Assembly (NCBI GenBank): GCA_963281255.1
Contig: OY725491.1
Location: forward strand, 5,444,857 to 5,508,856
Reading direction: 5' to 3'
Length of the DNA: 64,000 nt
Origin: Aphrocallistes beatrix
Taxonomy: Eukaryota > Porifera > Hexactinellida > Sceptrulophora > Aphrocallistidae
Shown here: positions 46,210 through 50,832 of the stretch, piece after piece
Layout: the number at the start of each line of letters is the position of its first letter
How positions within the stretch are numbered: position 1 is the stretch's first letter
The notes under the pieces: model-generated
What the model saw: the letters and a program-made list of their open reading frames with translations, nothing else
Told to the model about the DNA's origin: nothing
The model's database searches: none
Program-made: the position numbers and the translations under genes

Positions 46210-46660
46210 ACCTCATTCAGCTCAATTCATTATTGTCAGATTGGGAAAATGTACCAAATTCGGGGGAGGATTATCATTGAGGCTATTGAGGCAGAAGCTT
46301 CATCGGTCGACATATCGATAGTGTAGTACCAATAAGACATCAACCAGAAGTGAGAGAATATGCACAAATATATGTCAGTAAATCATGAAGTTTTAATATT
46401 ATAACTATTTATCAAGCAGATGATATTCTGCATAGTAAACACCCATACATTAGCCGTTGAGAAATAATAAGACATTTAAACACATAAAACAAGAGAAATT
46501 AGAGAAATATTCAAAGTAACATTATACTGTGACAGCATAGATGAAACTTAACACGAACAAGTTATATCATAATTAGTCATGTGAAGTTCTACATAGCTTA
46601 AAGCCTATCCTATATGTACACTCCCAAAAGTTTCAATAATATCAGACAGTGAAAAATTCA

Positions 46661-47851
46661 ATGGCTTCAAACTACACGTGCAATGACGTTAATCCAGCTT
46701 CAGACCCATTTTCAATGGCTGAAATCGCTATTAAGACTACATTCAGTTTTCTAATCCAGAAACTTAATGAGAAAATGGAGAAGTTACTAAAAGAAGTAAG
46801 TGACTTAAAATTTGACTACTTCAGTAGAGAAGAAATTCGAAAAAAAGAAATAATCGAACTAGATAAGCTGATTGAAAAAATGGAAGAGACAACAATTGAG
46901 CAAAATACAATCGTCAAGCTTCATGAAGACCACATCAAAAATCTTAAAGAAAAGAGGACTGATTACCAGCAACCCACCCCAATCCCATTCCCTGAATTCA
47001 GTACTGTTCGTCTCCAAGAGTTACAACTACAACTAGAATGTTTCGGGAAACTGCAAGATATAGGAGATGTCTACAGATCAAAGCATGAGCCTATAGCAAG
47101 TATAGGAGAGGAAAAAGTAGATTTATACGGCCCGCGTAGTGTAGTTACCGATGAAGAGGGAAAGGTTTATGTGGTTGAGGCATGGAACTGTCGAATCCAG
47201 GTTATTAGCTTGAAAAATGAGTGCATAACTGAATTTGGTAATAAAGTTTTAAGCGTCCCTAACTCTATAGCACTATACAAAAATAAGGCATTTGTAAGTG
47301 ACAGAAAAGAAAATGTCATACTTATATTCGATATCAAATTTATATTTGATATTCAGACATTTGAATTTGTGGGTAAAAGCGAGAATCTAGGACTTTCCAT
47401 TCCATTAGGCTTGACTGTAGGAAATAGCGAAGTGTTGGTAGCAGATTCTAGCAATAACAGAATAGTCGTTCTAAGTATCGACCTTAAATTCTTAAGAGAA
47501 TTCGGGACTGGAAAGCTAAACAGTCCAGTCGATGTAAAAGTCAATAGGGATAAGATTTTCGTAGCAGATGAAAGTAGACCAGAAAATATACATATATTTT
47601 CTCCATCAGGCGATCTGCTTAATTGCATTATTAGTTTAAGAGATGGAACTGGTTATATATTTTTTTGTTTCGATCAGTTTAATAATATCCTCATCAGTGA
47701 CAGTTTAGGTAAATCAGTACAAATATTTACAACTGGAGGACAGCTAGTCCATAGTATTGAGTGTGACTATGAACCGAATGGCATTGCAGTGACTCGTGAT
47801 AATATAATCATTTGTGTTGATTCTACGAATAATAAGATAGATTTGTATTAG
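46661..47851 (+). CDS. Coiled-coil NHL-repeat protein
   Basis: The intronless frame gives 396 residues from ATG 46661 (an in-frame GTG four codons earlier is not used). The first ~110 residues are a charged coiled coil; from ~130 to the end there are about six NHL-type beta-propeller blades (e.g. LYGPRSVVTDEEGKVYVVEAWNCR written here only in part: GPRSVVTDEEGKVYV, ADSSNNRIVVLS, VDSTNNKIDLY). The layout equals the C-terminal half of TRIM-NHL ligases but lacks RING and B-box, so it is not itself a ligase. NHL propellers bind RNA or proteins. A second gene of this type lies at 49594-50832, on the other side of nanos. Confidence 0.8.
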   Translation: MASNYTCNDVNPASDPFSMAEIAIKTTFSFLIQKLNEKMEKLLKEVSDLKFDYFSREEIRKKEIIELDKLIEKMEETTIEQNTIVKLHEDHIKNLKEKRTDYQQPTPIPFPEFSTVRLQELQLQLECFGKLQDIGDVYRSKHEPIASIGEEKVDLYGPRSVVTDEEGKVYVVEAWNCRIQVISLKNECITEFGNKVLSVPNSIALYKNKAFVSDRKENVILIFDIKFIFDIQTFEFVGKSENLGLSIPLGLTVGNSEVLVADSSNNRIVVLSIDLKFLREFGTGKLNSPVDVKVNRDKIFVADESRPENIHIFSPSGDLLNCIISLRDGTGYIFFCFDQFNNILISDSLGKSVQIFTTGGQLVHSIECDYEPNGIAVTRDNIIICVDSTNNKIDLY

Positions 47852-48227
47852 ATTGTCTAGCCTGTGTGTGTACTTTATAAATTTTGTCTTAAATTTATTA
47901 AAAAATGCATGTACAAGTATAATTAAAATTTTGGTCAAAACGTATATAGGACAATATTAAAAGTATACCATGGAAATTAATTGTCTATTAAGTGAATAAA
48001 TATTTTTACAAAACTGCATCTCAAAGCGACGAGTTGATTCGTATCGTCGAGACTTTGATTTAAAACCCATACTAAAGATGACATCTATTTACGAGCCAAG
48101 GCAATAATATTTCAAACATTGATTTCACTAATCAATTAATTAGTGCCATATTATTTATTTTTTTACGGAGCTAAAAATGACACCACATGACAAGAAATCA
48201 ATTCGTTACAGATGCCTGCAACTATAG
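47852..48227. other. Intergenic region before nanos
   Basis: AT-rich; 3' flank of the NHL gene and 5' flank of nanos. No distinct feature apart from the TATA box that follows. Confidence 0.35.
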
Positions 48228-48235
48228 TATAAAAA
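48228..48235 (+). promoter_or_regulatory. TATA box of nanos
   Basis: TATAAAAA 66 nt before the start codon at 48301. Confidence 0.5.
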
Positions 48236-48300
48236 GTCAACTTCAAATTTAAAAAACATCCCAAACAAATTTCAAAACATTTCAACAAACAAATTCCAAA

Positions 48301-48747
48301 ATGCCAGCTCAAACTTATTCTCCATTCAACAACTACTTCGGATTAGCTGACCTTATTTCCAATACTCAGGAAACAAAATATGTTCCTACATCAATTCTCA
48401 ATCCACTCGCATCACCATTTGTACCTTCAAACCTGCCAATTTCCAATAATGAATAGGAAACACCCATTTCCAATCTGCCCAACTCAATCCAGTACAAACT
48501 TGAAGTACAGAGACAGAGAGCTGCTCTTAACAGTGAACAGTACTCACGAGTCAAGTTCTGTATATTCTGTCAAAAGAATAGGAAACCTCACTCCATCCAA
48601 AAGTCTCATCGCCTTAGAGATACTAATGGGAGAGTGGCATGTCCTTTCTTGAGACAGATGATTTGCCCACAGTGCGGAGCTACTGGTGATGATGCACATA
48701 CAATCAAATATTGTCCTGCAAAACAGCCAACAATAATTTTCACTTAA
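48301..48747 (+). CDS. nanos: nanos homologue with one in-frame TAG
   Basis: The frame of 148 codons runs without a shift from ATG 48301 to TAA 48745-48747 and is broken only by TAG at codon 52 (48454-48456). Codons 87-138 carry C-x2-C-x12-H-x10-C-x7-C-x2-C-x7-H-x4-C, exactly the paired CCHC zinc finger of Nanos, with AHTIKYCP at its end. Codons 9-19 (FNNYFGLADLI) resemble the CNOT1-binding motif near the N-terminus of vertebrate Nanos. Nanos represses translation of germline and stem-cell mRNAs with Pumilio and the CCR4-NOT complex. The conserved motifs lie on both sides of the stop, so the stop is recent, an error, or read through. A 36-nt GT...AG stretch (48421-48456) could remove it only as an unusually small intron. 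Confidence 0.85.
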
Positions 48748-48826
48748 TTTTTATTTTTACATGTATATACGTAATTACGCACACAAACGACAAAATCCAA
48801 ATTTTTATATATAAATCAAAATCCCA

Positions 48827-48832
48827 AATAAA
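48827..48832 (+). terminator. Polyadenylation signal of nanos
   Basis: AATAAA 80 nt after the final stop codon. Confidence 0.5.
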
Positions 48833-48913
48833 TCAATTTTAATTAATTAAGAGATGATTGCAAATATCTGTGCCAAAATAAAGTTCAACAAAATTTTAAC
48901 ATCTTTTTAACAT

Positions 48914-49593: not shown

Positions 49594-50832
49594 TCAGAAT
49601 AGTTGGATGCAATGATTGGGATTACTAGAAGCAACTATTATTCTATCTTCCGAGTCTAGAGCTATTCCTTGAACATAAATGAAATCTCCTCTATCTACTC
49701 CTGTCTGACCGAATTTATGTATCAATTCTCCTCTGTTAGAGAAGATTAACACACAATCAGTAGCTTCATCCGTCATTAGAATGTTGTTAGCTTCATCTAC
49801 ACAGAAGTACTTTGGTTCTAACACTAGTTTCCCTTCTCCAAGAGGTATTATCTGTCGGATAAGCTGGTGAGAATAATTGTAGTAACGAACACATGGATCT
49901 CCTCCTGTCAATACTACAATCTCATCAGAAGTCAGCTTAATATCGTAGGAAGGGGGAACATCCTCAATGAGCGAATGGAATGTAAGATCCAAGTTTAAAC
50001 ATTGAATGCTATCATTCCTCCATGCACAAATGTAAATTCTTTTATTCTCATTTGACACAGCAACTCCTCCAAAGGGAGAAAATTCTAACTTTCTTTCCCC
50101 ACTCTTTCCAACAGAGTTTAAGAATTTCTTCCCTTCAGCAATATACACATTCAGGGAAGAGCCAAGTAACTGCGTAACATAGACTTTGCTATCGCTGATA
50201 CAGATACCAATTGGACAAAACATCTTCTCTTCGAAATCAAATAAAAATTCCAGATTTTTACTAAACACTTGCACACGATTGTTCGCTGAGTCACAGATGT
50301 AAACGTTGTCATTTTGAGAATTTATTGCGATTGATCTAGGTTCGCAGAACACTCCGGGGCATTTCGATGAATCAAAACTGTATTTACAAGCTACCATTAG
50401 GGGATCTCCTCTCACTTCATAGGGAGGAGGGAGGTCACTCACTTCGATCGATCCTATCTCGCTCAGTTTATCGAACACGCACTCATCCCACTTCAACACT
50501 ACTCTCCGCATGCTAGCGAGATCTTTCTCAAACTTAGTTCTTATCTCTCTGATGTGTGCTTCCAACACAGACACACACTTGTTCACAATTTCTATATTTT
50601 CGTTTTCCTTTACAGAAGATAGTTGCGACTCTTTCAAACGATTCAGCTCCTCGATCTGTTGGTTGACTCCTTCCGCCCTGTACCAAACCAGTTCATCCAG
50701 CTCTGACAATAAACTGGCTTCCCTCTCCACTAACACCTGATGAGATCTCTGGAACTTTGTGGCTATTTCCCTCCTCACTCTCTCCACCTGAGAGAGGAAT
50801 GAATCACTTCTCAAAACACTAGCACTAGCCAT
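49594..50832 (-). CDS. Coiled-coil NHL-repeat protein
   Basis: The intronless frame encodes 412 residues starting at ATG 50832 (MASASVLRSDSF). Residues ~10-125 form a coiled coil like the BBC region of TRIM proteins, followed by a proline patch (PPPYE) and NHL blades from ~150 to the end (e.g. AINSQNDNVYICDSANNRVQ, ALDSEDRIIVASSNPN). RING and B-box are missing. Family knowledge: NHL propellers bind RNA or protein partners. It stands in opposite orientation to the other NHL gene and is flanked by copies of one small segment (48960-49165 and 51131-51300). Confidence 0.8.
   Translation of the reverse strand: MASASVLRSDSFLSQVERVRREIATKFQRSHQVLVEREASLLSELDELVWYRAEGVNQQIEELNRLKESQLSSVKENENIEIVNKCVSVLEAHIREIRTKFEKDLASMRRVVLKWDECVFDKLSEIGSIEVSDLPPPYEVRGDPLMVACKYSFDSSKCPGVFCEPRSIAINSQNDNVYICDSANNRVQVFSKNLEFLFDFEEKMFCPIGICISDSKVYVTQLLGSSLNVYIAEGKKFLNSVGKSGERKLEFSPFGGVAVSNENKRIYICAWRNDSIQCLNLDLTFHSLIEDVPPSYDIKLTSDEIVVLTGGDPCVRYYNYSHQLIRQIIPLGEGKLVLEPKYFCVDEANNILMTDEATDCVLIFSNRGELIHKFGQTGVDRGDFIYVQGIALDSEDRIIVASSNPNHCIQLF

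Follow-up and report, generated by a model that had tools for sequence, protein, structure and literature searches.

Nanos proteins are characterized by a double CCHC zinc finger (zf-nanos, PF05741), which in members of the family is joined to the N-terminus by one open reading frame. According to excerpts of PMC4003280, a CNOT1-interacting motif (NIM) with five near-invariant positions occurs in sponge Nanos, and vertebrate NIMs recruit CCR4-NOT in isolation, the NIM of Nanos3 competing for CNOT1. The consensus FxxWxDYxxL for the CNOT1-interacting motif is given in an excerpt of PMC10157403, where TOB1 and TOB2 are also described as joining a PABP-binding PAM2 with CCR4-NOT recruitment. The locus described here lies in the window, which is the whole stretch of 64,000 nucleotides that was analysed (contig 4, 5444857-5508856). 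It resembles the Nanos family in the exact spacing of its finger, in a putative N-terminal CNOT1-type motif, and in having single-frame paralogs in the same genome. It departs from the family in that the finger is preceded by an in-frame stop and that a PAM2-like motif follows the CNOT1-type one upstream of the finger. A pairing of PAM2 with CCR4-NOT recruitment, if the two motifs act as they do elsewhere, would be shared with TOB1/TOB2 as far as the excerpt describes them, but the domains are unrelated, and the RNA-binding module is here the Nanos finger.

Two further classes of genes offer a comparison. Early duplicated (non-processed) pseudogenes are like this locus in that one mutation disables the gene, its sister copies have decayed, paralogs elsewhere are intact, and a promoter-like element has been kept; unlike them, the locus has only the one lesion, and a loss of constraint is not yet measurable. 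Metazoan stop codon readthrough genes likewise have a constrained frame after the stop, whereas the stop in the window is not conserved in a sister copy, lies in no known readthrough context, and has only a weak hairpin. Among the best open-access literature matches, judged by titles and the beginnings of abstracts, no account of this case was found, and phrases for a nanos pseudogene matched nothing.

The nanos frame and its internal amber codon

The nanos reading frame occupies positions 48301-48744 of the window, from the ATG at 48301 to the terminal TAA at 48745-48747; like all features of the gene given below, it is on the plus strand. Counting the internal stop, it comprises 148 codons and needs no intron, and the paralogs C2 and C11 (on contigs 2 and 11) are likewise single open frames. 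The only stop inside it is a TAG at codon 52 (48454-48456), by which the N-terminal part and the finger are separated. The preliminary description had proposed a nanos gene with one amber codon in an otherwise perfect frame, and this is what the sequence contains. Such a frame with a single internal TAG is far beyond chance; of the 1323 single base changes that can be made in it, 63 (about 4-5%) create a stop.

Downstream of the TAG, the remaining 96 residues align with the Pfam zf-nanos profile from position 1 to 53 of 54 (E 3e-23, 82 bits against a cut-off of 27). They also match PDB entry 5kl1, named Protein nanos, at E 9e-21, and entry 3alr, named Nanos protein, at E 8e-16. The finger itself, of 53 residues (48559-48717), is of the zf-nanos double CCHC type, has the spacing C-x2-C-x12-H-x10-C followed by C-x2-C-x7-H-x4-C, and retains all eight zinc ligands, so that the earlier claim of an exact Nanos finger after the stop is upheld by both databases and by the ligand spacing. 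The stretch from the TAG to the finger contains no in-frame ATG, so that reinitiation downstream of the stop cannot rescue the finger. A TATA-box-like sequence (tataaaaa, 48228-48235), recognized by eye, is located 73 nt upstream of the ATG, and a similar element is found 5' of the sister copies C1a and C1b and of C2 and C11.

Two short motifs precede the stop. Codons 6-19 (48316-48357) encode the stretch YSPFNNYFGLADLI, which by eye resembles the published CNOT1-interacting consensus: its pattern YxxFxNYxxL is identical to FxxWxDYxxL at the Y and the L (2 of 5), has aromatic residues at the F and W positions, and has N in place of D. Measured against the five near-invariant NIM positions as excerpted from PMC4003280, the window copy keeps two exactly and has aromatics at two more. 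Similar stretches are present in C1a, C1b, C2, and C11, and a PDB search with the first 51 codons returned chance matches only, none of them for the CNOT1-type stretch. The CNOT1 motif that had been suggested upstream of the TAG is thus present as a CNOT1-type stretch by eye, with an extent slightly wider than the codons 9-19 first given.

Between this stretch and the stop, codons 30-43 (48388-48429) form a PAM2-like motif of the kind that binds the MLLE domain of PABP, containing LNPLASPFVPS. Its Pfam PAM2 match (E 0.0024, 17.9 bits) is under the cut-off of 20, and that of the intact paralog C2 is over it (23.3 bits); C2 is the only one of the four paralogs C2, C11, C17b, and C7 in which Pfam finds PAM2, and in C11 as well as in the sister copy C1a the motif is recognizable by eye only. 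Pfam thus places a PAM2 motif, or in the window copy a PAM2-like one, downstream of the CNOT1-type stretch and upstream of the finger in two Nanos paralogs, C2 (L007:1474-1998, minus strand) and the window copy. No Nanos with PAM2 is reported among the best literature matches at the level of titles and abstract beginnings. If members of such a Nanos subfamily do bind CCR4-NOT as well as PABP, they would offer a testable variant of the way in which Nanos silences mRNAs.

The neighbours of the window copy are TBL3/Utp13 and two NHL-repeat genes. The latter are both single-frame and flank the nanos copy on either side, at window positions 46649-47851 and 49594-50832.

Sister copies, codon 52, and selection

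A profile search of the genome (100.5 Mb, 28 contigs) yielded nine zf-nanos matches, retained from 11 scored candidates. A search of prokaryote genomes and viral contigs returned no relatives from outside this genome, a result that carries no information for a sponge gene. When window positions 48200-48900 were used in a DNA search, three other places covering the finger were recovered besides the window itself: C1b (contig 1:6094566, 80% identity to the window), C1a (contig 1:5977544, 79%), and C4b (contig 4:4859896, 75%), the identities applying to matched stretches of 210-281 bases across the three matches. In a tree of the nine finger sequences, the window copy, C1a, C1b, and C4b form one clade with support 99/99, within which C1a and C1b pair with support 94/89; the remaining forks are weak.

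All three sister copies are broken. C1a reads TAA at codon 6 and has lost one nucleotide. C1b shows the same loss and, beyond it, lacks 104 nt at one place and a single nucleotide at another and carries 2 inserted nucleotides; the frameshift common to both is the older lesion. In C4b the finger is scattered across three frames, and no recognizable N-terminal part is present in the 550 bases upstream of the match. Of the other nanos genes, C2 and C11 have the same motif order as the window copy in a single open frame, and C7 and C17b have an open frame through the finger. On contig 17 at 3961020, an intact nanos finger is found from whose open frame the N-terminal part is absent, so that this gene is either spliced or broken.

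At codon 52, the nucleotide alignment sets GAA TAG GAA in the window against GAA GAG GAG in C1a, an alignment that depends on the one sister copy retaining the region and lies in a poorly conserved linker. Because C1a reads GAG here, the stop is most simply explained by a one-base change from a glutamate codon (GAG to TAG). The frames of C2 and C11 contain no internal stops. Thus, the disabling codon has a sense counterpart in a relative, and the stop is not conserved among the paralogs in this genome, with GAG in C1a and no stop in C2 or C11.

Selection was estimated by pairwise codon likelihood between the window copy and C1a, a comparison in which an omega of 0.5 corresponds roughly to one fully neutral branch. 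Across all 144 codons compared, omega was 0.180. For codons 1-51 (49 compared) it was 0.257 (p 0.0013 against 1, p 0.14 against 0.5), and for codons 53-148 (95 compared) it was 0.128 (p 4e-6 against 0.5), where the differences are mostly silent; the downstream likelihood profile stays within 2 units of the best for values from 0.07 to 0.20, and 0.25 is 2.5 units below. The corresponding downstream value between C2 and C11 was 0.099, with silent sites saturated. Purifying selection has therefore acted on the parts before and after the stop since the two copies diverged, on the latter for most of that interval. Downstream of the stop this selection, with an omega significantly below 0.5, shows no measurable loss; constraint after the stop was lost recently, if at all. 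From the same value it follows that either the stop is recent or the gene is still working.

Branch-specific codon models over all codons did not separate the window and C1a branches (p 0.24 and 0.22), a failure for which saturation of the silent sites towards the outgroups is the probable cause. Polarised amino-acid differences downstream of the stop numbered nine on the window side and five on the C1a side, with eight unclear, and upstream seven and three, with 13 unclear, a pattern suggestive, though not decisively so, of a slight excess of change in the window copy. The rate of decay in the clade offers a further measure of time. The near-identical copies C1a and C1b, about 117 kb apart on contig 1, share one frameshift and then have four separate lesions; since parting they have gained these four lesions against six substitutions, one of the substitutions being itself a lesion. 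As dead copies gain lesions this fast and the window copy has one, any time for which it has been dead was probably short.

Weighing the readings of the stop

Taken together, these data make it probable that the window nanos carries a genuine nonsense mutation of recent date in a redundant duplicate, an allele that may be fixed or still segregating. A freshly disabled duplicate is the most likely reading because the three sister copies are broken whereas nanos genes outside the clade remain intact. One substitution, most simply GAG to TAG, would have put the stop after the N-terminal effector motifs; translation from the stopped copy would give a 51-residue peptide without the RNA-binding finger, and the function would presumably rest with the intact nanos genes. 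We infer that a protein with the finger is no longer produced from this locus and that its paralogs compensate for the loss. Against a dead copy stand the otherwise perfect frame past the stop, the TATA-like element, and the full-length finger; a still-working gene fits the selection statistics equally well, and relaxed selection is not seen. The preliminary description had named a pseudogene as the outcome that would overturn its proposal, and with broken sister copies and GAG in C1a, this is now the likelier one.

The constraint on either side of the stop and the fact that one substitution is the sole defect would also be expected if the TAG were an assembly error at one base, the true codon being sense and the gene an ordinary working nanos; we regard this as unlikely, since lone substitution errors should be uncommon in so contiguous an assembly (28 contigs) and the three broken sisters show that the clade decays. 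Removal of the stop by splicing appears highly improbable. The 36-nt micro-intron that had been proposed (48421-48456, GTACCT...GAATAG) has GT and AG ends and a length that is a multiple of three, and in total 14 in-frame GT-AG combinations of at least 20 nt would remove the stop. The stretch nevertheless aligns with coding sequence of C2, C11, and C1a, is judged coding, and includes the last part of the PAM2-like motif, which the intron would take away. Its splice sites are poor: the donor TTT|GTACCT agrees with the consensus at four of eight positions, as does the other possible donor for a stop-removing intron, and the acceptor has five pyrimidines in 12 positions. The introns resolved exactly in this genome are of 215 nt (TBL3) and of 56 and 61 nt (an ADAR-like gene on contig 10). 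A further intron of the latter gene has six possible junctions, giving 31 to 97 nt, and could thus be as short as 31 nt; in an ADAR-family gene on contig 14, a gap of 340 nt separates two matched stretches whose ends are not placed. Because this sample of introns is small and non-random, size alone cannot rule out an intron of 36 nt. According to excerpts of PMC10282587 and PMC10280926, introns of Oopsacas minuta average 194 bp on one scaffold and 341 bp across the genome, and those of Aphrocallistes vastus average 516 bp on one scaffold.

Recoding of the stop, by UAG readthrough or by A-to-I editing of UAG to UGG, would leave a working gene with regulated production of full-length Nanos and, if true, a stop-gated germline regulator. 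The constrained frame after the stop (omega 0.128) is consistent with it, as is a predicted 5-bp hairpin that starts at the last base of the TAG (48456-48471), in which G48456 is paired with position 48471 with a probability of 0.85-0.93 in four fold windows. The significance of this hairpin is doubtful, as the 100 nt from the stop have a folding z of -0.95 and 39 of 200 shuffles fold as well. Against editing, pairing of the A in the UAG does not exceed 5% in any of the four fold windows. The readthrough context UAG-CARYYA is absent at this stop. Deaminase matches of the ADAR family are found at two loci, on contigs 10 and 14. Editing capacity is possible because the gene on contig 14 keeps the catalytic HAE motif; the ADAR-like gene on contig 10 (contig 10:4052242-4053395) has CRAE where HAE is expected. 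With GAG in C1a the stop is moreover not conserved, and we consider recoding very unlikely. The germline regulator gated by readthrough or by a micro-intron, as first envisaged, is thus not supported by the sister copies, which are broken or read GAG, or by a fold that is no better than shuffles.

It is equally improbable that the 51-residue peptide is itself used, for example in linking CCR4-NOT to PABP or in titrating CNOT1 from full-length Nanos. The CNOT1-type and PAM2-like motifs both precede the stop, and the behaviour of isolated vertebrate NIMs and of the Nanos3 NIM, as given in the excerpt of PMC4003280, would fit such a role. The message could also escape exon-junction NMD, since the gene needs no intron. 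The idea is weakened by the selection estimates, in which the region downstream of the stop shows no less constraint than the region upstream of it (0.128 vs 0.257), the opposite of what a long-standing truncated product would leave. A layout combining both possibilities, in which the stop splits a Nanos paralog into a small NIM-plus-PAM2 adaptor and, through occasional readthrough or editing, a full-length protein, would constitute a stop-gated germline repressor with a new NIM-plus-PAM2 Nanos architecture, and we hold it to be very unlikely.

If the nonsense allele in a redundant duplicate is indeed what the window contains, the locus is an ordinary example of birth-and-death evolution among duplicated germline genes, and the four sister copies would provide a useful series of decay stages.

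Further observations in the genome

The ADAR-like gene on contig 10 may, judging from its sequence, encode an inactive deaminase. Two in-frame TAGs in its match had been considered as a sign of a genome-wide oddity and were rejected, as both lie within the 61-nt intron; a 142-nt intron in the same gene was likewise rejected, its junction skipping exon sequence according to the domain match. The mitochondrial contig (contig 28, 18 kb), whose features jointly point to a glass sponge, reads TGA as Trp in cox1 and contains an atp9-like frame. Under table 4, it gives Arg at sites where Ser is expected, which suggests that AGR is read as Ser, as in glass sponges.
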